Virus record (IMG/VR): IMGVR_UViG_3300042314_002741
Location: 1-30,121 of that record
Length of the DNA stretch: 30,121 bases
Reading direction: 5' to 3' (one strand)
Source of the DNA: a virus
Part shown: one piece after another, positions 4,000 to 26,680 of the stretch
How positions within the stretch are numbered: position 1 is the first letter of the stretch
Layout of the letters: each line of letters starts with the position of its first letter
Program-made: the position numbers and the translations under genes
The notes under the pieces: model-generated
The model's database searches: none
The model's input: the letters and a program-made list of their open reading frames with translations, nothing else
What the model was told of the DNA's origin: nothing

Positions 4000-4344
4000 T
4001 TAATTTAAAGGTATAATACTTACAATATTATCATAAATTTTACTAGAGGTACTTTTATTAACACCTTTCAACGTATTAGTTGTGATGGAGTGGTTATTAC
4101 ATAGAGAGGTCAATTTATAATTGAGAGTGCATCCTCCAGCAGCGTTTTTATCCATTAAAAAAGGATAAGGCAACTCTAAAACCTTATTTGTTTTTTTATC
4201 TGTCTCAATATAAAATCTAATGAAATATTGCTTTATATTAAACAATGTGAGCTTACCAGTCTTTAAAACCTTATTATTACATTTAATGGTTACCTTTGAC
4301 TGTAAATAGGACTGAAGTATTTTTGTGTAGAGCTCTATATTCAT
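4000..4344 (-). CDS. Small protein of unknown function
   Basis: A 114-residue protein that I do not recognise. It is basic and rich in beta-branched residues, with no signal peptide, membrane segment or known motif; the central part (FLMDKNAAGGCTLNYKL) is the most distinctive. Its ATG overlaps the stop codon of the upstream gene (ATGA arrangement), so it is translated from the same message, with only a GGA as possible ribosome site. It ends 24 bases before the start of the helicase gene. Translational coupling and matching base composition argue that it is real. Confidence 0.65.
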   Translation of the reverse strand: MNIELYTKILQSYLQSKVTIKCNNKVLKTGKLTLFNIKQYFIRFYIETDKKTNKVLELPYPFLMDKNAAGGCTLNYKLTSLCNNHSITTNTLKGVNKSTSSKIYDNIVSIIPLN

Positions 4345-4718
4345 GATTCCATGTACAGAATTTTCTGCTCTGTATTAAGAGTATATATCTCATTATTGAA
4401 AAAAGTCCAGAACTGCTCATTAGCAGGTATCTGTCTTATTATAGTAACTTGATCTGCAGATACTATTCTATAATCTTGCATTAGTATATCCCATACTATA
4501 CACGCATTTTGTCTAGCTTCATTAAACTGTTTATTTTGACGTGGTGGGGTATAATTTAATACAATACGACCGTTTGTAGAGTTTAAGAGATCGTAAGACT
4601 TTGTACATAGCATTCTACGCGTAGCTGGTTTATTAGCTAGTGGTATGCGCCGTACAAATCTCAAATCGAGAACATTATTGAGGAGAAGATTCTCCAGTGC
4701 TTGTATCGATACTGCCAT
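4341..4718 (-). CDS. DUF2693/WYL_2-like small beta-barrel phage protein
   Basis: A 125-residue protein resembling the small proteins found in many T4-like marine phages and grouped as DUF2693 (Sm/SH3-like fold). It shows the usual order: an N-terminal helix (ALENLLLNNVLDLRFVRR), a variable Arg-rich strand (TRRMLCTKSYDLL), then VWDILMQDYRIVSADQVTII, where the conserved 'vWd...W/YR.f..d.i' pattern is seen. Function is unknown. I place the start at ATG 4718 rather than at an in-frame TTG eight codons earlier. The gene overlaps the end of the GroES-like gene by 44 bases and the start of the next gene by 4, so it is part of an operon. Confidence 0.6.
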   Translation of the reverse strand: MAVSIQALENLLLNNVLDLRFVRRIPLANKPATRRMLCTKSYDLLNSTNGRIVLNYTPPRQNKQFNEARQNACIVWDILMQDYRIVSADQVTIIRQIPANEQFWTFFNNEIYTLNTEQKILYMES

Positions 4719-5115
4719 TTTGCTTTGGTTTACAAATTCCAAAAATTCTACTTTCGTTAAGGAAGACTGCTCCGTTTGCCTTGCCGTAACCGGTTATATC
4801 TACATTTGATACAGTAATGCCTAGGTTGTTTGGAAACACTACTATATCACCTACCTTGGTGTATTTTACTTGCGGTCCTGCTAAAATAACCTTAGCCTTT
4901 CTCCATGCCTTGGTTAGTGTATTAGTTGGAATATATATACCGTTTCTAACAATACCGTCTCTATCCTCTGTCATATCTACATACTCCACTAGTACAATAT
5001 CATCAAAAACAAAACTTAATTCATAATCTTCAAGACCAAAATCTCCATTGGAATGGGAGGACAGGTCAATAAGGCTTCTTGTAGGTGCTAACTGATCGAT
5101 ACTTGCTTGTGCCAT
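4675..5115 (-). CDS. GroES-like co-chaperonin (gp31 analogue)
   Basis: A 146-residue protein whose core (about residues 33-130) follows the Cpn10 pattern: FDDIVLVEYVD, a mobile-loop region DRDGIVRNGIYIPTNT, AKVILAGPQVKYTKVGDIVVFPNN, and a C-terminal strand FLNESRIFGICK. T4 gp31 replaces GroES in folding the major capsid protein, and cyanophages carry comparable genes. The ILAGP and VGDIVVFP segments are the best match to GroES (VVAVGPG and VGDIVIF). The N-terminal 30 residues and the polar tail (SIDTSTGESS) are extra. The gene starts 4 bases after the gp62-like gene; AGTAAATA ends 5 bases before its ATG. Assignment rests on fold pattern, not on close identity. Confidence 0.75.
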   Translation of the reverse strand: MAQASIDQLAPTRSLIDLSSHSNGDFGLEDYELSFVFDDIVLVEYVDMTEDRDGIVRNGIYIPTNTLTKAWRKAKVILAGPQVKYTKVGDIVVFPNNLGITVSNVDITGYGKANGAVFLNESRIFGICKPKQNGSIDTSTGESSPQ

Positions 5116-5119
5116 GCTG

Positions 5120-5491
5120 TTATTTACTTGTATTATTTGTTAAATCAATGTACTGTAATATTTCTCTTTTTGAGAGCATATTGTTTTTCGCTATGACACC
5201 TACACTAGGATCTTCGTCTTGCGTTTCTTTTTTCTTTTTTATATAATTAATTTTTTTAAACTTACTCTGCGGAATTAAGTTAAAGTATAATTTATACATT
5301 TCATTTTTATCTTCAAATAGAGAAGCAAACTTATTAAATGTTTCATTAATAAAAATAGTTTTAGAATTATCATAAAACGAAATCCATCTATTTACCATGT
5401 AAGGAGTAAACTGCTGAAGTCCCTCACTACAGAGATCTTCAGCAGTTTTTTTTGCAAATAGAAGTGATCTTAGTATATCAAAGAAATTCAT
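5120..5491 (-). CDS. 62: Clamp-loader small subunit gp62-like
   Basis: A 123-residue protein with the arrangement seen in marine T4-like gp62 proteins: an N-terminal helix ending in a KK motif (LLFAKKTAEDL), then FTPYMVNRWISFY, and YKLYFNLIPQSKFKKINYIKKKK. In T4, gp62 joins the gp44 ATPase to load the sliding clamp gp45. T4 gp62 itself is 187 residues and very different, so this call rests on the shorter marine versions as I remember them. The gene overlaps the upstream DUF366-like gene (ATGA), with AAAGG eight bases before the ATG, a clear Shine-Dalgarno. A 12-bp inverted repeat lies inside it (5408-5448). Confidence 0.6.
   Translation of the reverse strand: MNFFDILRSLLFAKKTAEDLCSEGLQQFTPYMVNRWISFYDNSKTIFINETFNKFASLFEDKNEMYKLYFNLIPQSKFKKINYIKKKKETQDEDPSVGVIAKNNMLSKREILQYIDLTNNTSK
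5121..5128 (-). promoter_or_regulatory. Possible late promoter box for the GroES-like gene
   Basis: AGTAAATA on the minus strand, ending 5 bases before ATG 5115. The box overlaps the TAA stop of the preceding gene, so it could arise by chance. Six of 8 bases match the T4 late consensus, and the spacing is the same as at other late-type boxes in the window. Confidence 0.35.
5408..5448 (+). terminator. Intragenic hairpin with T tract, terminator-like on the plus strand
   Basis: AAACTGCTGAAG at 5408-5419 pairs perfectly with CTTCAGCAGTTT at 5437-5448 around a 17-base loop. On the plus strand the stem runs into eight consecutive T (5446-5453). This is the form of a Rho-independent terminator, but it lies antisense inside the gp62-like gene and no plus-strand gene precedes it. 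It could stop antisense transcription or act as an RNA structure in the minus-strand message. Confidence 0.5.
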
Positions 5492-6072
5492 ACAATTACC
5501 TTTGTAGTGGCGATTTGCATGTCCTTAATTTCATCGTTAAAGTAGTTAATAGCGCGATGCATTAGTTCCTGAACCTGTCCATCGTTAAGTTTTGAACTAT
5601 ATGCAAACCCTGGTGCCTTATTACCTGCGTTAATATTAATACCAGTATGTCCGATAGCTACATTATCTTTGGAGTAGGTAATTGAAACGCTGACCTTACC
5701 TACTTCATACTGCTTTTTATCCTTACCTCCTATAAAGGAATCATGTACCATAATATCATCACCTTTCATCTCCAACGGCTTGTTAATAAGCATGGCAAGA
5801 ATATTAGCGATAGCTGCATTAAAGAGACGTTGAAAAGCTACTGCACCTATAGGACAGAGATTTGGAATTTCCCAACATAAATTAATAGCATCATCGCTAA
5901 AAATATAATCTTTACTAAGAGAGTCTTCCAAGTCAATAAGATTGTCACTTACATACATAGGAGCTCTAAAAGCTACAATATCACCATAAGGTGATACGTC
6001 TTTTTTGAAGAACTGATAAGCAAAGCGCTTGTGAATTAGATCGCCATTATAGATTGGTTGTTCGATTATCAT
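5488..6072 (-). CDS. DUF366-like protein, possible biotin/lipoate-ligase-like fold
   Basis: A 194-residue protein matching the DUF366 pattern I know from archaea and marine phages: YNGDLIHKRFAYQFF, then GDIVAFRAPMYVSDNLIDLED (the conserved DsiVaFrGp...mvDleD block), a helix at about residues 85-100, and GKVSVSITYSKDNVAIGHTGINI near residues 125-150. The fold is reported to be related to biotin and lipoate ligases, but no reaction is established. It heads an operon with gp62 and the GroES-like gene, and a TTGATT promoter lies upstream. A link to replication is suggested only by its neighbours. Confidence 0.6.
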   Translation of the reverse strand: MIIEQPIYNGDLIHKRFAYQFFKKDVSPYGDIVAFRAPMYVSDNLIDLEDSLSKDYIFSDDAINLCWEIPNLCPIGAVAFQRLFNAAIANILAMLINKPLEMKGDDIMVHDSFIGGKDKKQYEVGKVSVSITYSKDNVAIGHTGININAGNKAPGFAYSSKLNDGQVQELMHRAINYFNDEIKDMQIATTKVIV

Positions 6073-18491: not shown

Positions 18492-19118
18492 TCAGCCCCA
18501 GCTAGTACCAGCAAACGGATTGCCCATACCTTGAGATACATGAGACCCAACTCTCGCTCCGTTAGTATGAGTATAGCTCTGCTGTGTATGTACTGGATCT
18601 GCTGTTGGTCGTACTTCTACTGATGCGTCAATCTGTTTATCTTCTGTGGCTAATGGAACAGCAGCTAATGATATACTGTTTTCATCATATACGGCTGAGT
18701 TTTCTTCATGCTCGAATACCTCAACTTTATCAACCCAGCATCTACCATTAGTAAGAGATTTAATATAGTTATTTGCAATGCTATGAACAACCTCTGCAAC
18801 TCTTTCAATTCCAGCACCTTTTTCTAGAACGCGGAGCTGAATAATACCTTTACGATCTAGTTCTTCGAATGTTGCTAGTTCTGGATCATCGGCCGCGACG
18901 GTAGTTGTATGATCAAATACATGCTGTAATTTAGCTTTAAGCTCTTTCAAGCCACCAAAATCTACACACCAGTTTTTATCGTCAAGAGACGAACAACCAA
19001 ACCAAAGCTTAGCTTTAAGTTGATATCCATGCAAGAATCTGCAGTGTGAATGGGTAGCACGCCATTGTCTAAACGCACATGAACCTAGTTCAATAATTTT
19101 AGTGCTTTGATAACTCAT
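18492..19118 (-). CDS. queD: 6-carboxytetrahydropterin synthase QueD-like, with C-terminal tail
   Basis: A 208-residue protein of the QueD/PTPS family. Counting from ATG 19118, CAFRQWRATHSHCRFLHGY gives H23, catalytic-type C26 and H30, and FDHTTT supplies the catalytic Asp-His; VDFGGLKELK and ADDPE are also family motifs. The usual third zinc His (HGH) is Tyr (Y32), which may be typical of this branch. It converts 7,8-dihydroneopterin triphosphate to 6-carboxytetrahydropterin for QueE. Residues about 150-208 are an extra polar tail (VHTQQSYTHTNGARVGS). I prefer ATG 19118 over ATG 19139, because TATAAT ends 7 bases before it and includes codons of the longer form. Confidence 0.78.
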   Translation of the reverse strand: MSYQSTKIIELGSCAFRQWRATHSHCRFLHGYQLKAKLWFGCSSLDDKNWCVDFGGLKELKAKLQHVFDHTTTVAADDPELATFEELDRKGIIQLRVLEKGAGIERVAEVVHSIANNYIKSLTNGRCWVDKVEVFEHEENSAVYDENSISLAAVPLATEDKQIDASVEVRPTADPVHTQQSYTHTNGARVGSHVSQGMGNPFAGTSWG

Positions 19119-20091
19119 ATGTTTTATTATATGAGTCATTTAGATTTTTCAACTGTAAAAGTAACTCTGTCTGTGTATTTTTTTCTGATATTAACATATG
19201 ATCATCTTTGAGAGATTTCTTCAATGCTGCAATGTCGGTAGGTGTTAGTACATAAGTATCATTTCCCACTGCAGCTGGTACAGCTGCATCGATTATATCA
19301 CGGTAGGTTTGATTATTTCCTTTATTAAAAGCTCTTAACAAAGCTACTGACCACTGTTTAGCTGTAGAGTTATTTGGTTTAAATTGGGGTATCTTCTGTA
19401 GTAATATATCTAACTTAGGTTGAATTTCTTTTTCTGTAGTACTAGGCCGTATAAACTGACCTTCACCGTCACGGACTGTTATTTCATATGGAGTTTCTTT
19501 ATTACCGGTTTTTTTAACGTAGCCAAAAAAAGATCCTTCCTTAGAGTTTTTTGCATTTGTTGTAAATTGTGTAAGGGGTGACATAAACCTACCACTCATA
19601 CCGGTTGTAGGGTAGGGTGTATTATTTACTCCACCCGAACTACCTGTGGTATTATTAGAAGATGGAGTTAAAATAGTAGGGTCACCTAGCTTTCTAGCTG
19701 TAAAAGGAACTATTGTAATATTCATGTTGCTAGGGTCTGGCTGACCTCTTCCAATTTTTAAAGATATAGTTTGAAAGATATCTCTATATTTTGATTCAAG
19801 CTCTTTTCTTAATGCAGCCTCTTCCTTACCCATAAAAGCTTCACGAGCTTTATTTGCAATAGAAGCACCAGTTTTAGCGCCTTGTACGGCACCTGACGCT
19901 ATGCTTGAAAAAGGATTAGCATTAACATCTGCTTTTGCTAAATCTCTTACAATGTTTTTAGTAGCACCAAGCGCTGCTCCCACTGAACCGCCTACTGCTT
20001 TAACAGCTCCTCTACCAAGCGTCCTAGCTGAAGCACGTACTGCATCTAAGAATCCTTCTTTTAGCATCTCTTTTTGAGTTAGCTTACTCAT
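19099..20091 (-). CDS. Glycine/alanine-rich putative virion protein with capsid-targeting-like N-terminus
   Basis: A 330-residue protein of no recognised family. It starts MSKLTQKEMLKEGFLDAVR, where LKE-G matches the (L/I)xE cleavage rule of the T4 prohead protease gp21. Residues 25-55 form a Gly/Ala-rich, amphipathic, glycine-zipper-like stretch (GAVKAVGGSVGAALGATKNIV), and a second lies at 62-75, which could insert in membranes or oligomerise. A Ser/Thr/Asn/Gly linker (140-170) leads to a helical C-terminal domain (250-330). A late-type box CATAAATA ends 6 bases before ATG 20091. Internal-head or ejection protein is an inference from these features. Its 3' end overlaps queD. Confidence 0.6.
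   Translation of the reverse strand: MSKLTQKEMLKEGFLDAVRASARTLGRGAVKAVGGSVGAALGATKNIVRDLAKADVNANPFSSIASGAVQGAKTGASIANKAREAFMGKEEAALRKELESKYRDIFQTISLKIGRGQPDPSNMNITIVPFTARKLGDPTILTPSSNNTTGSSGGVNNTPYPTTGMSGRFMSPLTQFTTNAKNSKEGSFFGYVKKTGNKETPYEITVRDGEGQFIRPSTTEKEIQPKLDILLQKIPQFKPNNSTAKQWSVALLRAFNKGNNQTYRDIIDAAVPAAVGNDTYVLTPTDIAALKKSLKDDHMLISEKNTQTELLLQLKNLNDSYNKTYELSKH
19126..19152 (-). promoter_or_regulatory. Putative sigma70-like promoter for queD
   Basis: TTGAAA at 19152-19147, 15 bases, perfect TATAAT at 19131-19126 on the minus strand, 7 bases before ATG 19118. It lies in the overlap with the end of the upstream structural-like gene. Confidence 0.5.
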
Positions 20092-20097
20092 ATCATA

Positions 20098-20105
20098 TAT
20101 TTATG
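20098..20105 (-). promoter_or_regulatory. Putative late promoter box for the 330-residue virion-like protein
   Basis: CATAAATA on the minus strand, 7 of 8 bases of the T4 late consensus, ends 6 bases before ATG 20091. It lies in the noncoding divergent gap next to the folE promoter, and no Shine-Dalgarno is present. Confidence 0.55.
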
Positions 20106-20106
20106 G

Positions 20107-20135
20107 TTGATTTACCATTATCCTTATAATATAAT
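20107..20135 (+). promoter_or_regulatory. Sigma70-like promoter for folE
   Basis: TTGATT at 20107-20112, 17 bases, TATAAT at 20130-20135, then 6 bases to ATG 20142. Since a -10 hexamer spans -12 to -7, the A of the ATG is the predicted +1. Identical hexamers and spacings occur at uvsY. Confidence 0.7.
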
Positions 20136-20141
20136 TCTCTT

Positions 20142-20810
20142 ATGGATGATTTAGATGAACATGATGTAACAGGAGAAGAGGTTAAGCTTCCTAATGCTAA
20201 TGGTAATGCTCCGCGATCAGATAGAGAAAAGCAGACTATTATTAAGAGAGCTGCTAAGGCTTATGAAAAATATCTAGATGCACTTGGCTTTGATTGGAGA
20301 AACGATCCTAATTCCTCTAATACTCCTATGCGAGTAGCTAAGGCTTTTGTTAATGACATTGCATCGGGATGCTATAATGAACCACCGTCTGTTACAGCGT
20401 TTCCAACTGATGGATATGATGGGGTCATTGCTCAATGTAATATTCCTGTTAAGTCTCTTTGTTCTCACCACCATCTAGCATTTACTGGAGTAGCGCATGT
20501 AGCGTATATACCTTCTCTTGATGGTAAAGTAATCGGATTAAGTAAACTCAATCGTATTGTAGAGTTTTACGCTCGGCGTCCTCAGATACAAGAAGGTCTA
20601 ACAAAGCAGATTGCTGAGGCAATTGATAAGGTTTGTGAGAAGAATAGAGGAGTCGCAGTAGTTGTAAAAGCTCAGCATACCTGCGCTTGTCATAGAGGAG
20701 TAAAGCATGAAGGTTGCTTTATGATCACATCTAAACTAACAGGGGACTTTATGGATGATGAAAAAACTCGAACCGAGTTTTATAAATTTATTGATATGGC
20801 TTCTAAATAG
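20142..20810 (+). CDS. folE: GTP cyclohydrolase I
   Basis: A 222-residue FolE. Zinc ligands are C107 and H110 in LCSHHHL and C171 in [31 protein letters not shown] and [10 protein letters not shown] are family signatures. It converts GTP to 7,8-dihydroneopterin triphosphate, the first step toward 7-deazaguanine and also toward folate. With queD and queE nearby the deazaguanine route is the likely one, feeding DNA base modification or queuosine-type chemistry. The N-terminal 25 residues are acidic and Asn-rich and lie outside the core. It diverges from the 330-residue virion-like gene. Confidence 0.92.
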
Positions 20811-20831
20811 GAACTTTATCATACTAACTGT

Positions 20832-21431
20832 ATGAATATTTTTGTAACTGATGAAGATCCCGTGTTAGCAGCACGGGATCTTTGTGATAAGCATGTAAGA
20901 TCCAAAATGCAGATTGAAGGAGCTATTATGCTAGCGCATGCATTTCCTCAAGAGATATTAAACCATCCATCAACACCGAAAACAAAATCAGGTAAATCGC
21001 GAAGATCAGGGAAAGGTTACTCTAGACATCAGTGTTCTATATGGGCTCGCGAATCAAAAGAAAATTTCCTTTGGCTAGTAAATCACACATTAGAGCAATT
21101 TACTGAAAGAATGTATAGATGGCCCGCTTCAAACGAACACTTTACAAAAGAATTTATCGTTTGGTGTAGTAAAAATATTCATAATACTTTTATAGAAAAA
21201 AATTCACTTACTCCTTTTGCTGTAGCTATTAGTGAGGATTGTGTTTGTAGAAAAGTTATACCTAATTTTGAATCACTTAGTACTATCGATAAGTATAGAG
21301 CTTATATAATTTACGATAAAGACTTTGCAACCTGGACTAAAAGAGAATCGCCTAATTGGTATAATCAACTTCAATCTGATCACCAGCTATATGATTCGAG
21401 TTTACATCAATCAAAGCGTCAAGCTGCTTAA
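20832..21431 (+). CDS. Conserved phage protein of unknown function (DKHV family)
   Basis: A 199-residue protein starting MNIFVTDEDPVLAARDLCDKHVRSKM, followed by HQCSIWARESKENFLWLVNHTLEQFTERM. I know this order, 'MNIF..D.DP..aa..l.DKHV.Km', 'H.C..W...s..N..WL..H', from many phage proteins without an assigned role. The His/Cys pattern suggests a metal site. The family tends to end near W..r..PnWY; here about 20 further residues run into the convergent protease gene, overlapping it by 80 bases. CATACT ends 6 bases before the ATG as a weak -10. A strong hairpin lies inside codons 8-17. Confidence 0.7.
   Translation: MNIFVTDEDPVLAARDLCDKHVRSKMQIEGAIMLAHAFPQEILNHPSTPKTKSGKSRRSGKGYSRHQCSIWARESKENFLWLVNHTLEQFTERMYRWPASNEHFTKEFIVWCSKNIHNTFIEKNSLTPFAVAISEDCVCRKVIPNFESLSTIDKYRAYIIYDKDFATWTKRESPNWYNQLQSDHQLYDSSLHQSKRQAA
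20854..20882. repeat. 11-bp perfect hairpin at the start of the DKHV-family gene
   Basis: AAGATCCCGTG (20854-20864) pairs with CACGGGATCTT (20872-20882) around a 7-base loop. It is GC-rich for this genome and followed by only three T on the plus strand. It lies 44 bases past the folE stop and 22 bases into the next gene, so it may be a folE terminator or an RNA structure controlling the downstream gene. Confidence 0.65.
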
Positions 21432-21792
21432 TAAAGTCCTTACCAATAAGAACTTTATATTCGTTCTGCGACCTGTTACCAATACTAAAAGGTATATTAT
21501 CAAACTCTGTACCTGCAAATTTCATTCTAAATGTAACAACTGGTCTTTCTTCGACATGACCGGCACCTACATTAATATTAATTGTATCGTGAACGTCTTT
21601 TATAATTCTTTTACCATCTATGGTTGTAAAGGTAACCTTATTGCCTTGTTTAGTAATATTCTCACCATGCAATACATTATAAGCGCCGTTACCTGAGTCA
21701 ATTTTTGCTTCAAGAGAACCGATTCCAGCTAGTTCTATTTTTTCAATTAGACCTATAACTGTAGCCTCGAAGAATTTCTTAAAGCTTTTCAT
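21352..21792 (-). CDS. Retropepsin-like protease (RimB / 'ATP-dependent zinc protease' family) with capsid-targeting-like N-terminus
   Basis: A 146-residue protein matching PF05618 (RimK-associated retropepsin-like proteases): IGLIEKIELAGIGSLEAKIDSGNGAYNVLH, with D32 in AKIDSG at the place of the catalytic Asp (family AKIDTGA.TSALHA), then VEERPVVTFRMKFAG and NRSQNEYKVLIGKDFI, the NR...y..LIGR.f block. Family enzymes act as dimeric aspartyl proteases. The first ten residues, MKSFKKFFEA, resemble the T4 capsid-targeting sequence MKTYQEFIAE. It may therefore be packaged in the head, or be a prohead enzyme. The 3' end overlaps the DKHV-family gene; the start directly abuts the stop of the upstream gene. 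Confidence 0.72.
   Translation of the reverse strand: MKSFKKFFEATVIGLIEKIELAGIGSLEAKIDSGNGAYNVLHGENITKQGNKVTFTTIDGKRIIKDVHDTININVGAGHVEERPVVTFRMKFAGTEFDNIPFSIGNRSQNEYKVLIGKDFIKQLDALIDVNSNHIAGDQIEVDYTN
21431..21458. repeat. Imperfect hairpin in the convergent overlap
   Basis: ATAAAGT and CTTA pair with TAAG and ACTTTAT with one C-A mismatch and a CCAA loop, directly at the stop codon of the plus-strand gene. There is no T tract. It could end transcription between the convergent genes, but it is weak evidence alone. Confidence 0.3.
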
Positions 21793-22283
21793 TAGTTACA
21801 ATCTGAGCAACCTCCACAAGTACAACCTTCTCTAGCATAAGAACAACCTGTATCTTCATGACCTGTATTATACATGTCTCCTTCTTCATGATTACAACTA
21901 CCGGTTTCGCTACCCTCGTGTTGTTGATACTCCAACCAGTGATAGACGGATGATATATAGTCTGAAGCCTTAGTAATTTTTGACGCAATCCAACCCTCAA
22001 GGCCCTGCATTTGACTTACCATTTCTTTTAATTTTGGTGCGTACTCTGCAAGCTTATGAAGCTCTGCTGATGCCATTTCAATCTCACTAGGATCATTTTC
22101 ACCCTCGTGCTCCATGTGTTCCTCTTCATGAGATTTATGACTTTCATGGTCTACTTCTGCACCTGGCATATCCATTGTTATCATTACAGGCTTACCTCCT
22201 AACATGTTAGAGGGTGTAAGTGACATACCGCCTACATCACTATAAGCTTCTTCTAGCATTTTAAAATCTTTTCTAGTAGACAT
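21792..22283 (-). CDS. Small His/Glu- and Cys-rich protein with capsid-targeting-like N-terminus
   Basis: A 163-residue protein. The N-terminus MSTRKDFKMLEEAYSD has a FKMLEEA segment with a candidate gp21 site. Residues 46-59 are a His/Glu cluster (HESHKSHEEEHMEH). Residues 70-120 hold a helical domain (ASAELHKLAE to GWIASKITKASDYISSVYHWLEY) that I know from many cyanophage proteins of unknown role. The C-terminus is Cys-rich, with C130, C147, C154, C156, C159 and C162 ending GCTCGGCSDCN, probably metal-binding. Late-type box CATAAATA ends 5 bases before ATG 22283. It may be a head-packaged metal-binding protein. Confidence 0.65.
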   Translation of the reverse strand: MSTRKDFKMLEEAYSDVGGMSLTPSNMLGGKPVMITMDMPGAEVDHESHKSHEEEHMEHEGENDPSEIEMASAELHKLAEYAPKLKEMVSQMQGLEGWIASKITKASDYISSVYHWLEYQQHEGSETGSCNHEEGDMYNTGHEDTGCSYAREGCTCGGCSDCN

Positions 22284-22288
22284 ATTAT

Positions 22289-22296
22289 TATTTATG
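22289..22296 (-). promoter_or_regulatory. Putative late promoter box inside the capsid-targeted cluster
   Basis: CATAAATA on the minus strand ends 5 bases before ATG 22283. It overlaps the TAA stop codon of the upstream gene, so part of the match may be fixed by that codon. Confidence 0.45.
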
Positions 22297-22825
22297 CTAT
22301 ACCTAGTATCTTCTTAATTCTTTCTTTATCTGTCTGATTAATTATTTCAGGTACAAAGAAATCTAAAGAAGAGGGATCTTTACTCATAATCATTTCTCTA
22401 GTTTGTGTACCACGTACCCCTTCACCGCTTAATGGTATATCTATTATTTGAACGTTAGGATATTTTTCAGGATTTTTTCGAAAGGAATTATATCTAGCAC
22501 TATCTTCCGGACCAGCTCCTACAATAATATTTAAGCTAGGATTATCTAAAGCATAGTCGTAAGTAGAATTTAGAGGTGTAGCAGGGCTCTTGTAAATCTC
22601 TATAGGCTTAGATAAATACGGTGCATAAATGGTCCATATTTGATATGCCATATCTTGATCTATACCATCACGTGGACTTTTACCTATAAAAACAACACCT
22701 CTATCAGCATTTTTTAATAACTCGTTCAACGCTTCAAAGTGACCTTTTGTAGGGGGCTTAAATCCTCCCGGAAAGATAGCTACCGATTCTTTATTTTGCT
22801 CGAAAAATAATTTAAAGTTTATCAT
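22292..22825 (-). CDS. NMN-adenylyltransferase-like nucleotidyltransferase with capsid-targeting-like N-terminus
   Basis: A 177-residue protein of the cytidylyl/adenylyltransferase (HxGH) superfamily. FPGGFKPPTKGHFEALNELL (residues 18-37) carries the nucleotide-binding GFxPxTxGH motif, and VRGTQTREMI (137-146) matches the ISGTxxR loop. The size and order fit NMN or other adenylyltransferases, but the substrate could be a different nucleotide or polyol phosphate. Residues 1-10, MINFKLFFEQ, precede the catalytic strand and match the capsid-targeting pattern. AAGGG eight bases upstream is a good Shine-Dalgarno, and the start overlaps the ligase gene by 4 bases. Confidence 0.75.
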   Translation of the reverse strand: MINFKLFFEQNKESVAIFPGGFKPPTKGHFEALNELLKNADRGVVFIGKSPRDGIDQDMAYQIWTIYAPYLSKPIEIYKSPATPLNSTYDYALDNPSLNIIVGAGPEDSARYNSFRKNPEKYPNVQIIDIPLSGEGVRGTQTREMIMSKDPSSLDFFVPEIINQTDKERIKKILGIA

Positions 22826-24519
22826 ATACGACCCTTATTTTTATGAAAAGTTGGAGATATAACTTTAAATGTAAACGGTTCATTATTAGGTTGCTGTATT
22901 TTTATTACAATACCTTCGTAGTCACCTAGCTTACCAGCCAGTTTACCTAACTTGCGAAGGATCTTCGTATGCATTCTTTTTTGATATGGTAAGAGAATGT
23001 TAACTAAATGACCTCTCATTGCTTTTTTAGCCCGCTGATGCTCAGGCTTCCTCGAAGTGTTATATAATACCTCCTCATAATTAGGATTTTGCATCTCGAA
23101 GGTTTTTATTTCCTGTATGCTATTTTCTGTTTCGTAACTTAGATTGATTGATTCAAATACATCAATGTTGAGAGGTATAAACTTTACATCGTTATTCGTT
23201 AGATCTGTTAGTGTTCTAGTAATGTCATTAACTAAATCCGCATTTAGTTCCCTACCGTTATAATCCGTTATGTTAATAATAGGGAACGTCGACCATGAAC
23301 CTAATTTATCTCGCTCATAATTAGTACCTACAAAGTATACAATCCCCGGTTTATCTTCACGTGATAAAGCAAACGGTGAGTATAACCATTCAGCTTGTAC
23401 TCTCAATCCGTCTATCTTTAGATCCTTTTTATATCTTAATAAAGATTTATAAACTAACTTTTTAATTTTGTTGAAATTATCTTCAAAAGCCTTCCTAACA
23501 GGTTCGTAAGTTATTTTATTTTTAAAGTTACCATCCGTGGAAGGACTCCCACCACTCCCCTGTAAGAAAAACCTATCATCTTGAGTTATACCAAACTTGA
23601 CCGACAGGCCGTCAGCTTTTTCGGAAATACTCGAATTACCTGGTTGTATTATACCATTGGTAGTTTCAAGAGCATCAAGAAGTTTAACAAAATTTTCAAA
23701 ACTCATGGAATACGATTCTGGTTTATACAGCGAGTAAAGATGCTGTACACCTACTCGTCGACCCTCCTTGTCAGCACTCTCTTTTATAACACCGCTACTA
23801 CTAAAAATATCTATACCCTCTCTGTTAATAGTTTGTCTAGCTTCATCTAAAAGCGACATTACTATGTTTATATCTTTATATTTTTTAACCAAAAAAGATA
23901 TAATGGATTTTATGTTTAAAAGATTTCTTGTACGAGCATTAGAATCACCTAACAATATTTGAGCAACTCTATCTGTATCTTTATTTTCAATAGTATTTCC
24001 TGTTTGTCTATCTGTAATACCCTTTAAGCCACTCCATCTTAAATTAAGATTTTTTGCTAGGTTGGATAAAACTATACTTCTATATGCACCCTTCAAAGGA
24101 AAAGGCTCATCATTTGCTAGTACAAATTTTGCAAAGCTAATGTCAGGCACTAACATGAAGTCAGTCTGTACATATTCTCCATCTTTATTATATATAGGAG
24201 TTCTAAAATGAACGCTTATACCTGATCTTGCAATATAATTCTTAGGATTTAAATTTCGCTCCATACACCAGTTAGCTAAGATATCATAGAGTTGAACTTT
24301 AGATATTTTATTTTCATTTATAGCTATATCTAAGTCGCCAGAGGACTCTCGCTTACCTGTACTACCTAACAGATTCTTCATTAAATTAGTACCTACAATA
24401 TTAGATAAAAAACTAACTGTAGGCTCAATGTCTGATAAATTTATGCGCTGGGTAGGGTGTTGCTTAAAGACATTACCACCCTCAAGCAGAATGTTAAAAT
24501 ATTGACGGAAATTAATCAT
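22822..24519 (-). CDS. Pol-beta-type nucleotidyltransferase fused to ATP-dependent polynucleotide ligase
   Basis: A 565-residue protein. Residues 40-130 hold a nucleotidyltransferase: GS at 52-53, DLD with D62 and D64, and D120 in YVQTDFMLV, a complete three-carboxylate site. Residues 290-565 are a covalent nucleotidyltransferase/ligase: EKADG with Lys301 (motif I), AEWLY with E377 (motif III), GIVYFVG (IIIa), EGIVIKI at 535-541 (IV) and FKVIS with K552 (V). It would seal RNA or DNA nicks with ATP after an end is extended or modified. The N-terminus MINFRQYFNILLEGG looks like a capsid-targeting sequence with cleavage after LLE. TATTAT ends 6 bases before the ATG. Confidence 0.78.
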   Translation of the reverse strand: MINFRQYFNILLEGGNVFKQHPTQRINLSDIEPTVSFLSNIVGTNLMKNLLGSTGKRESSGDLDIAINENKISKVQLYDILANWCMERNLNPKNYIARSGISVHFRTPIYNKDGEYVQTDFMLVPDISFAKFVLANDEPFPLKGAYRSIVLSNLAKNLNLRWSGLKGITDRQTGNTIENKDTDRVAQILLGDSNARTRNLLNIKSIISFLVKKYKDINIVMSLLDEARQTINREGIDIFSSSGVIKESADKEGRRVGVQHLYSLYKPESYSMSFENFVKLLDALETTNGIIQPGNSSISEKADGLSVKFGITQDDRFFLQGSGGSPSTDGNFKNKITYEPVRKAFEDNFNKIKKLVYKSLLRYKKDLKIDGLRVQAEWLYSPFALSREDKPGIVYFVGTNYERDKLGSWSTFPIINITDYNGRELNADLVNDITRTLTDLTNNDVKFIPLNIDVFESINLSYETENSIQEIKTFEMQNPNYEEVLYNTSRKPEHQRAKKAMRGHLVNILLPYQKRMHTKILRKLGKLAGKLGDYEGIVIKIQQPNNEPFTFKVISPTFHKNKGRI

Positions 24520-24549
24520 TTTGTGATAATAAGTTTTTCAAGATTCCAA

Positions 24550-25251
24550 TTAGGCATTGCTTAGGTTGTCTTCTACTTCTTTATCTTCTAGGGATTGACT
24601 TAGAATACTCTGAATAGTTTCTACTATTTTTTCTGGATCTGAATCAGCAAACTCATTTACAACGGGCTTTATTATCATTAATTCTTCTTCAGAAGGAGTA
24701 TGTCTAAGAGCTTTTAAAATTAATTCTTGGTAAAGAGGAAATATCTCCGCTAAATTTAATTTATTTTCTGAATTTTCTACTTGACCTCCTGCAGGCTGTC
24801 TTGGTGTTGTATCTTGAGTTGAAGGTTCAGTTTGCGGCTCAGTTGCATCAGCTGGCTGCTCTAATAAAAATATATATTTATTTATTATTTTAAGAGTTTT
24901 AGACTCTATTCTTAAACTTTTATCTAAAGCAATAATTTTTTTAATTTCTCTTATAATTTCAGATACAGGTACGTTTACCATTTTCCCTATAGAATCTATT
25001 TTATTAAAAATATACTTATACTTCTGTATATCTTCTTTAAACTTGTTAGGGTTAAATATAAAAGCATTAGTTAGTATCTTTATTATATACTTTTCATTTT
25101 CATCAATATTACCAACCTGCTCCTGAGGCTCAGCTGGTGGTGCTGAAGCCGCTGCAGTCGCAGGCTCTACCCCAGCTGCTGGGTCACCTTCAGGAGCTTG
25201 CTCTTCAAGCACTTTAAGGTATTTTGCAAAAAGTTTATTTGTTTTATACAT
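24550..25251 (-). CDS. Helical virion-like protein with Pro/Ala linkers and capsid-targeting-like N-terminus
   Basis: A 233-residue protein of unknown function. From ATG 25251 it begins MYKTNKLFAKYLKVLEEQ, with a candidate gp21 site at VLEE. Two low-complexity Pro/Ala/Thr/Gln-rich linkers (about residues 21-45 and 133-160) separate two helical blocks, the first with ENEKYIIKILTNAF and the second with LAEIFPLYQELILKALRHTP. I choose ATG 25251 over an upstream start at 25305 because it avoids overlap with the previous gene and starts at the targeting-like motif. No nuclease or enzyme motif is seen. Confidence 0.6.
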   Translation of the reverse strand: MYKTNKLFAKYLKVLEEQAPEGDPAAGVEPATAAASAPPAEPQEQVGNIDENEKYIIKILTNAFIFNPNKFKEDIQKYKYIFNKIDSIGKMVNVPVSEIIREIKKIIALDKSLRIESKTLKIINKYIFLLEQPADATEPQTEPSTQDTTPRQPAGGQVENSENKLNLAEIFPLYQELILKALRHTPSEEELMIIKPVVNEFADSDPEKIVETIQSILSQSLEDKEVEDNLSNA

Positions 25252-25258
25252 AAACAAA

Positions 25259-25663
25259 TTAGTATTGAGCTGCTGATTGTACCTTTTTGTTAAAATCGTC
25301 TGCAAATTTTAAAGCTGCATCCGCCATCTTCCTCTTAGCCATCTGCATCTTACGAGCTGAAGAGCTTGTTAGTTGTTTACCAAACCCTTGATCAGGTATA
25401 TTTGCTATAGCTGTCATAGCTGATATAGCGTTACCAGGATCTTCTGCTTCTTCTTCTGAACTTTTGTTTACAACTTTCTTTACTTCAAGCTCAACCACGC
25501 GACCATCAGTGAGTTCAACATATAATATATCCTTAAAGGTGGGAGCTTTTACTTTAATATCACAGTCCATTAACATACGCTGAAGGTGTCTTTTTGCTGC
25601 TGTTTTGATATCAATATCACTCTCGGGCGTATTATCCTCTACAATATTTAAAAATTTGCTCAT
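25259..25663 (-). CDS. Small protein with capsid-targeting-like N-terminus
   Basis: A 134-residue protein of unknown function beginning MSKFLNIVEDNTPESD, a short version of the targeting motif with IVE as a candidate cleavage site. It continues with a helix (KTAAKRHLQRMLMD), a small beta section (ILYVELTDGRVVELEVKKVV), and a basic, Met/Ala-rich C-terminal helix (ARKMQMAKRKMADAALKFADDF). The start is ATG 25663, not ATG 25669: the latter lies inside the late-type box GATAAATA. Confidence 0.6.
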   Translation of the reverse strand: MSKFLNIVEDNTPESDIDIKTAAKRHLQRMLMDCDIKVKAPTFKDILYVELTDGRVVELEVKKVVNKSSEEEAEDPGNAISAMTAIANIPDQGFGKQLTSSSARKMQMAKRKMADAALKFADDFNKKVQSAAQY

Positions 25664-25668
25664 AAACA

Positions 25669-25676
25669 TATTTATC
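25669..25676 (-). promoter_or_regulatory. Putative late promoter box that fixes the start of the 25259-25663 gene
   Basis: GATAAATA on the minus strand, 7 of 8 bases of the T4 late consensus, ends 5 bases before ATG 25663. It overlaps the TAA stop of the upstream gene and an alternative in-frame ATG at 25669. Confidence 0.5.
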
Positions 25677-26094
25677 TAAAAAGCGCTAATTTATTAGGAG
25701 CTTGCTTAAAGTAAACAGTTGCCAGATAGGTTAGCTCGTACTTTTTTATATATTTTAAAAAAGATTTAAAAAAATTATGACTCTTTTCTGCTTTAAATAC
25801 TTCCATTTTTTTAAGAACTTCACATATTATATCAAGCTGCTCATTATTATAATCCTTCTTATCTATAAGAAATAACGGAGTTAGTATTTTACACTCCTTT
25901 TTAAGATTACAAACCTCTAAAATTATATTATTAATAATAATTTTTTTTATATCAATATTGTTCAAGTCGTAGTCAATATTGTATTCTATTGCTTTTTTTC
26001 TTGAATTGTGTATAGCCTTATTAATAGAGCTATTAAGGTTTATAGTTCTTTGGCTTTGACACTCGGAGATTAATGATTCCGTTATAATAGTCAT
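25672..26094 (-). CDS. Protein of unknown function
   Basis: A 140-residue, Lys/Ile/Asn-rich helical protein from ATG 26094 that I do not recognise. AGGAGG lies 12 bases upstream of this ATG, inside the end of the GIY-YIG gene; a TTG eight codons earlier is the alternative start. It overlaps the GIY-YIG gene by 62 bases, a larger overlap than usual here. It lacks the targeting-like N-terminus of its neighbours (MTIITESLISECQ). It is AT-richer than its neighbours, which may mean it was acquired together with the GIY-YIG gene. Confidence 0.55.
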   Translation of the reverse strand: MTIITESLISECQSQRTINLNSSINKAIHNSRKKAIEYNIDYDLNNIDIKKIIINNIILEVCNLKKECKILTPLFLIDKKDYNNEQLDIICEVLKKMEVFKAEKSHNFFKSFLKYIKKYELTYLATVYFKQAPNKLALFR

Positions 26095-26443
26095 CTCGTA
26101 ATAGTACCTCCTCTTCAAATTGAATTTTAGCCTCTCTATATGCTAGTGCAAATTTTGAGTCGCAAATCTCAATAATCTCAAAACTAAAGCTATCTTTACC
26201 ATACTTTAAGATATCTTCGTTAAGCTCTCTTGAAGAAGATGTATAAGTCTTCCAGTCAGTCTCTATTACCTCGTGTCTTTTATTCTTCTTTCCTTTAAGT
26301 GGACGCCTTTTAAGTATAGATTTACACTGTTTTTTACCAATATACTTTTTTCCTGTGGGTATACAGGTTATTTTATATAAAAACCCGTAAGGTATATTAC
26401 CTTCTTCAATTATAAGACTAGTATTCCAGTGACCTAAATCCAT
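26033..26443 (-). CDS. GIY-YIG endonuclease-like protein
   Basis: A 136-residue protein. GFLYKITCIPTGKKYIGKKQ (residues 20-39) is a GIY-YIG first block (GFLY and YIG), followed by a basic stretch, DWKTYTSSSRELNEDILKYGKDSFSFEII, and an acidic YREAKIQFEEEVL segment with a candidate catalytic Glu. Such modules occur in homing endonucleases and in T4-like Seg proteins. Its position inside the capsid-targeted cluster and overlap with the next gene suggest a mobile or recently inserted gene, but no insertion boundary is visible. Confidence 0.7.
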   Translation of the reverse strand: MDLGHWNTSLIIEEGNIPYGFLYKITCIPTGKKYIGKKQCKSILKRRPLKGKKNKRHEVIETDWKTYTSSSRELNEDILKYGKDSFSFEIIEICDSKFALAYREAKIQFEEEVLLRDDYYNGIINLRVSKPKNYKP

Positions 26444-26661
26444 TATTTTTTAGATTTATTTTTCTGCTTACGTTTTCTACGTCTTAACTTACCAGCTCTG
26501 GTGTATACTGCACCACCTTTTGGTATTCTAGCATCACCCGGTGCATAAAAATCAGAGCCAGATATATTATCAGGTGAAAATCCTCCACTACTACCGCCTA
26601 GTGCTGCACCTACAGTCATATTTTCATAAAAATATTGTTTAAATGTTACAGTTGATTTCAC
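26443..26661 (-). CDS. Small basic protein with capsid-targeting-like N-terminus
   Basis: A 72-residue protein starting at GTG: MKSTVTFKQYFYENMTVG, a targeting-like N-terminus, a Gly/Ser-rich middle, and a strongly basic tail (RRRKRKQKNKSKK). It resembles T4 internal head proteins in plan (targeting peptide plus basic DNA-binding part), though not in sequence. The box TATAAATA, a perfect match to the T4 late consensus, ends 9 bases before the GTG. Its stop overlaps the GIY-YIG gene start by one base. Confidence 0.6.
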   Translation of the reverse strand: MKSTVTFKQYFYENMTVGAALGGSSGGFSPDNISGSDFYAPGDARIPKGGAVYTRAGKLRRRKRKQKNKSKK

Positions 26662-26680
26662 TTCAATAAGTATTTATAAT
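26652..26680 (+). promoter_or_regulatory. Sigma70-like promoter for uvsY
   Basis: TTGATT at 26652-26657, 17 bases, TATAAT at 26675-26680, then 6 bases to GTG 26687, making GTG the predicted +1. It supports GTG as the true start. The -10 overlaps the late box of the divergent gene. Confidence 0.7.
26671..26678 (-). promoter_or_regulatory. Late promoter box, perfect TATAAATA
   Basis: TATAAATA on the minus strand, identical to the T4 gp55-dependent consensus, 9 bases before GTG 26661, giving a leader of about 4 bases. It shares bases 26675-26678 with the -10 hexamer of the uvsY promoter on the other strand. Confidence 0.65.

Follow-up and report, generated by a model that had tools for sequence, protein, structure and literature searches.

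Using a 30,121-base IMG/VR virus record (IMGVR_UViG_3300042314_002741; the whole of this stretch is referred to as the window), we observe a cohort of about nine minus-strand genes whose products begin with short peptides of one general plan, and we conclude that these shared N-termini are probably T4-type capsid-targeting sequences (CTSs) carried by a packaged set of enzymes. The eight N-termini listed in an earlier note on this DNA were all found to be encoded where that note had placed them, and our analysis adds a ninth, that of the 140-aa gene, which was absent from the list and is conserved in relatives (Table 1).

The window is one fragment of the genome of an uncultured T4-like phage: the T4 core genes for gp15, gp47, gp55, UvsW, UvsY and a clamp-loader subunit are recognizable in it, as is a GroES-like protein, and gp21 and gp23, both absent from this 30-kb record, are encoded by its relatives. 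Megablast of the window against phage records gave 0 matches, and a scan of bacterial genomes for a host found none. An operon-like run of minus-strand genes, from 26661 down to 21352, adjoins uvsY; two opposite-strand genes lie between this run and the 330-aa gene. The same operon was found in dozens of marine virus contigs.

Table 1. Tagged genes and associated features of the window, in the order of the minus strand; a slash marks the predicted cut.
Feature	Position	Strand	Remarks
Late promoter sequence (T4-type)	26671..26678	-	TATAAATA; 9 nt upstream of the operon's first start codon
72-aa gene	26443..26661	-	Tag MKSTVTFKQYFYE/N, then Gly-rich stretch and K/R-rich C-terminus; operon's first gene
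GIY-YIG (SegE-like) endonuclease	26033..26443	-	PF19835, E=7e-30; within operon; no clear tag
140-aa gene	25672..26094	-	Ninth tag, MTIITESLISE/C
134-aa gene	25259..25663	-	Tag MSKFLNIVE/D
233-aa gene	24550..25251	-	Tag MYKTNKLFAKYLKVLEE/Q, then A/P-rich linker
565-aa protein	22822..24519	-	Tag MINFRQYFNILLE/G, then Pol-X-like nucleotidyltransferase region and KxDG ligase-like region
NMNAT/cytidylyltransferase-like protein	22292..22825	-	Tag MINFKLFFE/Q; TxGH motif
Cys/His/Glu-rich 163-aa protein	21792..22283	-	Tag MSTRKDFKMLEE/A
Retropepsin-like "ATP-dependent zinc protease" domain	21352..21792	-	PF05618, E=1.5e-7; DSG motif; tag MKSFKKFFE/A
330-aa Ala-rich protein	19099..20091	-	Tag MSKLTQKEMLKE/G

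Domain searches against Pfam and PHROG confirmed the claim that the bodies behind the peptides are unrelated, with distinct assignments for the PF05618 protease, the cytidylyltransferase/NMNAT-like protein and the GIY-YIG endonuclease (itself without a clear tag), and with several unknowns among the remainder. For the 565-aa protein, the AlphaFold model was poor (pLDDT 57, and about 24-30 over the first 20 residues), and Foldseek on this poor model returned a weak Pol-X match (E=2e-3). tblastn of the 330-aa protein gave 0 matches. An NMNAT-like domain also lies inside a 907-aa NadR-like protein of Flavobacterium phage immuto, an arrangement that says nothing on the tag.

Examination of the start codons showed that the 72-aa gene begins with GTG at 26661, and we regard this tagged start as real, since two related contigs (L010 and L008) have an ATG at that position and lack the internal ATG. 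The 134-aa gene starts with ATG at 25663, with an alternative start two codons upstream, and the 233-aa gene with ATG at 25251. An apparent loss of the tag from the NMNAT of two further contigs (L168 and L169) proved to be a start-site artefact, the true start being MKTFKEYFEQ.

The statement that the eight N-termini share the same plan holds with a qualification. The T4 motif (L/I)xE ends five of the eight (MLKE/G, LEE/A, LLE/G, LEE/Q and IVE/D), to which the ninth tag adds a sixth case, while the other three have F at P3 and fall outside this motif, i.e., FFE/A in the zinc protease, FFE/Q in the NMNAT-like protein and FYE/N in the 72-aa protein (among the tag sequences of the window proteins are MINFRQYFNILLEGG and MSKLTQKEMLKEG). 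All three FxE tags contain an aromatic pair, F-x-x-[FY], corresponding to residues 4 and 7 of the T4 CTS, which are needed for targeting, residues 8 and 10 being those needed for processing (PMC9026906). Aromatics occupy exactly positions 4 and 7 in the zinc protease, the NMNAT-like protein and the 565-aa protein, and are shifted in the 72-aa protein, making four proteins in all. The other tags have a looser hydrophobic spacing, so that a T4-type aromatic pair is present in about half of the cohort.

Our comparison of first residues across relatives demonstrated that the tags are kept wherever the gene is found, both in close relatives (79-100% identity) and in a clade at 59%. This also holds for families gathered by body alone, i.e., with the tag removed from the query, where homologues are still tagged even at 24-60% body identity. 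The NMNAT and protease families retain the tag to about 41-47% identity (MRTFKEYFE, MKTFKEYYE, MITFKKFFE and MKKFKQFFVE), and in most of contigs L145-L171, where the pattern search had hit the tag of another, neighboring gene (usually DUF6267, MKNFKLYFE...), the NMNAT is tagged too. Within the 330-aa family, conservation is highest in the tag, and in the 134-aa family the tag is conserved while the bodies diverge almost beyond recognition. The idea that unrelated bodies sit behind one tag in the 134-aa slot was weakened, as some pairs are distantly homologous (26-31% identity, E about 1e-5); judged by these alignments, the slot is a fast-diverging family.

Three families allowed the predicted cleavage site to be read position by position. 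P1 is E in all distinct N-termini of the 330-aa (17/17), 233-aa (34/34) and DUF6267 (15/15) families, P2 is free (entropy 2.3-2.9 bits), P3 is mostly L or I, and P1' is mostly one residue per family, i.e., G, Q or A, with the family sites reading LSQxELLxE/GF, KTxxLxxxYxxLxE/Q and FKLYFExYxLLxE/A, respectively. The gp21 motif is (L/I)-X-E (PMC9026906), and the variation in these three families is the signature of this motif, whereas a conserved helix would vary otherwise. Exceptions occur in the Cys-rich family, which has LxE/AY in most relatives and K, R, N or Q at P1 in 7 of 17 distinct site hexamers.

The shared part also behaves as a tag separable from the body, as had been claimed. In relatives, the slot of the 565-aa protein is taken by a DUF6267 protein (PF19782), which is tagged (MKNFKLYFEQYELLNE/AKANTHLTHLEE), whereas cyanophage DUF6267 proteins begin right at the domain, without a tag (MAKNTHLEHLEDD, MATQNKHLEHLED), and that of HTVC008M has a short tag, MYNDLLVE/D. 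In the Pelagibacter phage Mosig, the zinc-protease domain has no tag and lies at the C-terminus of an annotated glutathione synthetase. Homologues lacking the N-terminal segment, which the earlier note had counted in advance against its proposal, therefore do exist, but those of DUF6267 start at the point where the tag would end, which supports the view of the tag as a removable module.

The relatives also encode the expected processing machinery. Three of 6 near contigs and 10 of 14 far contigs encode a gp21-type prohead protease (PF03420), and the gp23 precursor of relatives carries a T4-like site, CLTE/A or CMTE/A; protease and cut site were thus found in relatives' contigs, the window being a fragment. 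The late promoter sequence before the operon is conserved in seven contigs (L003, L005, L006, L010, L012, L162 and L146), and further late-promoter sequences precede, by 5-9 nt, a number of tagged genes at other places in the genomes of relatives, although this association is modest (p=0.0015 and 0.042 in two genomes, and not significant in shorter genomes).

Cyanophages provide virion data for one enzyme family of the cohort. Mass spectrometry (MS) detected the cytidylyltransferase T4-GC190 in S-SM1 virions (PMC3037559) and an NMNAT in S-SCSM1 virions (PMC9602691), and we find that these proteins begin with the T4-register tags MKKFSAFLNE/A and MKSFLQFLKE/A, respectively. The enzyme in the NMNAT slot of the related contig L109, tagged MRTFKKFFE/Q, shares 53% identity with that of S-SCSM1 and 50% with that of S-SM1; for the NMNAT of the window itself, identity to the S-SCSM1 enzyme is only about 24%. 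The authors leave open whether such proteins are cargo or contaminants, and allow for co-purification of highly expressed enzymes (PMC3037559, PMC9602691).

Similar N-termini could arise by chance or from a shared translation-start preference, and a loose rule, i.e., [ILVMFY]xE at residues 8-20 behind a short basic/hydrophobic stretch, does fire on 5-6% of ordinary genes. With this rule, 6 of 41 window ORFs matched against 2.0 expected, and in 22 loci of other virus lineages 76 of 275 cluster-strand ORFs matched against 12.2 expected when residues 2-40 were shuffled, a count inflated by about one gene per locus since some of these loci were retrieved via the tag pattern; the excess is still large after allowing for this bias, and only 5 of 76 ORFs matched on the opposite strand of the same loci. 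A stricter pattern built from T4 internal proteins, ^M.{2,6}[FY]..[FY][ILVFMY].?E, matched 3 ORFs of the window where 0.13 were expected (at most 1 in 300 shuffles); among 282 T4 ORFs it matched IPII, IPIII and gp61.1 only. These shuffle controls, together with conservation in families selected by body, refute chance at the level of the cluster, and we give this explanation next to no credence. As a genome-wide predictor of virion proteins the loose rule failed in S-SCSM1, where it did not separate MS-detected from undetected proteins (4/48 vs 13/236, p=0.32). Nor did MS detect the only other protein of that phage with a T4-register tag. The rule was not enriched in HTVC008M and weakly enriched in P-HM2. 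Because of these results, the motif alone is not diagnostic and needs operon context.

Two further explanations accept the peptides as functional and differ on what they do. The tags may target the prohead while the proteins act in assembly only, as core, scaffold or maturation proteins that are broken down or expelled afterwards, as happens to most of T4 gp22, gp67 and gp68, leaving no payload. T4 gp21 substrates do include core proteins (PMC9026906), and the 233-aa protein contains a second, internal LLEQ site; however, several of the bodies belong to enzymes whose motifs (TxGH, DSG and KxDG) are intact, which makes little sense for a scaffold, and finished cyanophage virions contain NMNAT (PMC9602691). 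We therefore consider an assembly-only role unlikely. Alternatively, the N-termini could dock elsewhere, as peptides or amphipathic helices on a membrane, the replisome or a common partner, with the proteins acting in the infected cell. Short tags of this kind could form amphipathic helices, and some homologous domains of other phages are untagged and lie among replication genes, but the tags vary as a protease site does and not as a helix face, they agree with the T4 targeting positions, and late promoters accompany the genes, which makes docking elsewhere quite improbable. Head packaging through a CTS is favored because the aromatic pair is present in four proteins and LxE or IxE in six.

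Under head packaging, the aromatic/hydrophobic patch (F4 with F or Y at 7 in the T4-like tags) would attach to the scaffold core of the prohead and, as the head matures, the gp21-type prohead protease of the phage would cut the (L/I)xE site behind the E. In this way, the products of about nine unrelated genes in an operon with a late promoter (the NMNAT-like enzyme, the nucleotidyltransferase/ligase, the retropepsin-like protease, and the Cys-rich and basic proteins) would be loaded into the head and, on the T4 precedent, be delivered together with the DNA. For the window phage itself, we infer both packaging and cleavage by a gp21-type protease from sequence; targeting is predicted for the three FxE tags too, although these may stay uncut. 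If cut behind the E, the mature window proteins would begin at G13 (330-aa), A10 (zinc protease), A14 (Cys-rich), Q10 (NMNAT), G14 (565-aa), Q18 (233-aa), D10 (134-aa), C12 (140-aa) and N14 (72-aa), and the cyanophage enzymes at A11 (AERSFAAK... in S-SM1 GC190 and AAESGAS... in S-SCSM1 ORF91). We lean, with confidence only a little above even, towards the broader proposal of a dedicated "payload operon" common to many uncultured T4-like phages of marine origin: almost all of its genes would be tagged, enzymes (NMNAT, nucleotidyltransferase/ligase or DUF6267, and retropepsin-like protease) would be pre-loaded and act on the host before phage gene expression, and bodies would be swapped behind constant tags. 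As to what such a payload would do, our guess is NAD or RNA/DNA repair, or the countering of host defense in the first minutes; speculatively, NAD supply plus nucleic-acid end repair would fit an NMNAT-like protein alongside a nucleotidyltransferase/ligase.

Virion proteomics repeatedly finds metabolic enzymes in marine phage particles, with cargo and contamination left undistinguished by the authors, and a readable N-terminal tag supplies both a mechanism and a prediction, namely which proteins are carried and with which new N-terminus. It would let candidate injected proteins be read from sequence alone, provided that operon context joins the motif. A review has already suggested the CTS as a means by which T4-like phages package varied proteins (PMC9026906). 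Two points are new, as far as the literature we searched shows: a conserved operon in which about nine genes, some of them for enzymes, are tagged, and the presence of the tag on cyanophage NMNATs detected by MS.

Three known systems resemble the one described here. The cyanophage virion NMNAT/cytidylyltransferase (T4-GC190; S-SM1, S-SCSM1 and S-CREM2) belongs to the same enzyme family and occupies the same slot in L109, and the enzymes of S-SM1, S-SCSM1 and P-RSM6 carry exact T4-register tags; in the sections of those papers accessible to us, presence in virions is described (S-SM1, S-SCSM1 and S-CREM2) with no mention of a targeting tag or of an operon of tagged partners. In the giant phages phiKZ and SPN3US, too, a set of head proteins have propeptides that are cleaved after E, and some of these proteins are delivered to the host (PMC9026906), but the phiKZ cleavage motif, S/A-x-E, differs from that of the window. 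The third parallel is T4 itself, where IPI, IPII, IPIII and Alt carry a short N-terminal peptide of the same plan (MKTYQEFIAE/A in IPII and IPIII, MKTFKEF... in IPI), with aromatics at 4 and 7, an (L/I)xE cleavage motif and unrelated bodies among the internal proteins, and where gp21, a protease type encoded by the window's relatives, cuts the targeting sequences of the internal proteins and Alt. The window tags differ from those of T4 in that P1' is often Q and P3 is sometimes F. Whereas the T4 internal protein bodies are small proteins, IPI being anti-restriction, the window has about nine tagged genes, some for enzymes, in one conserved operon by uvsY. The internal-protein system of T4, with its few small proteins, would thus be broadened to include a conserved payload of several enzymes.

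The late promoter sequence TATAAATA (positions 26671-26678 in the window; L018-L033 among the sequences compared) lies just 5-9 nt upstream of the codon at which head genes and tagged genes start, a gap short enough to suggest that late transcripts in this phage group are near-leaderless. Tagged late genes also occur in relatives outside the operon.

Tagged late genes of relatives located outside the operon (/, predicted gp21-type cut site)
Sequence compared	Coordinates	N-terminus
L028	2209-2613	MITFKEYLVE/Y
L029	1793-2395	MAKKYLTLVE/A
L022	15219-16706	MSSFTKLLSRLSSLHE/A

DUF6267 homologues (L169, a relative: 4161-5375) carry a KWDG motif, and since this resembles ligase motif I, the family may be nucleotidyltransferases/ligases; no mention of DUF6267 was found in the literature searched. 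In the window, a DUF366 protein gene (5488-6072; PF04017, E = 4e-18) adjoins a clamp-loader-like gene.

In Flavobacterium phage immuto (L081-L089), at least two proteins share a different N-terminal motif, MKKQILSE/QFxRMQxLAGI, possibly a second type of head tag. Cyanophage S-SCSM1 (L192:44215-44535) encodes a 106-aa hypothetical protein with the T4-register N-terminal tag MKTFKQFMSE/S; its gene is flanked by two genes for virion proteins detected by MS, and the protein itself is absent from the list of MS-detected virion proteins. T4 gene 61.1 (L054:18966-19130) encodes a 54-aa hypothetical protein with an internal-protein-type tag, MKTFKEFIKE/DM, and the 72-aa protein of the window is similar to this gp61.1, both being Gly-rich with PENIS or PDNIS, IPK and a basic tail.
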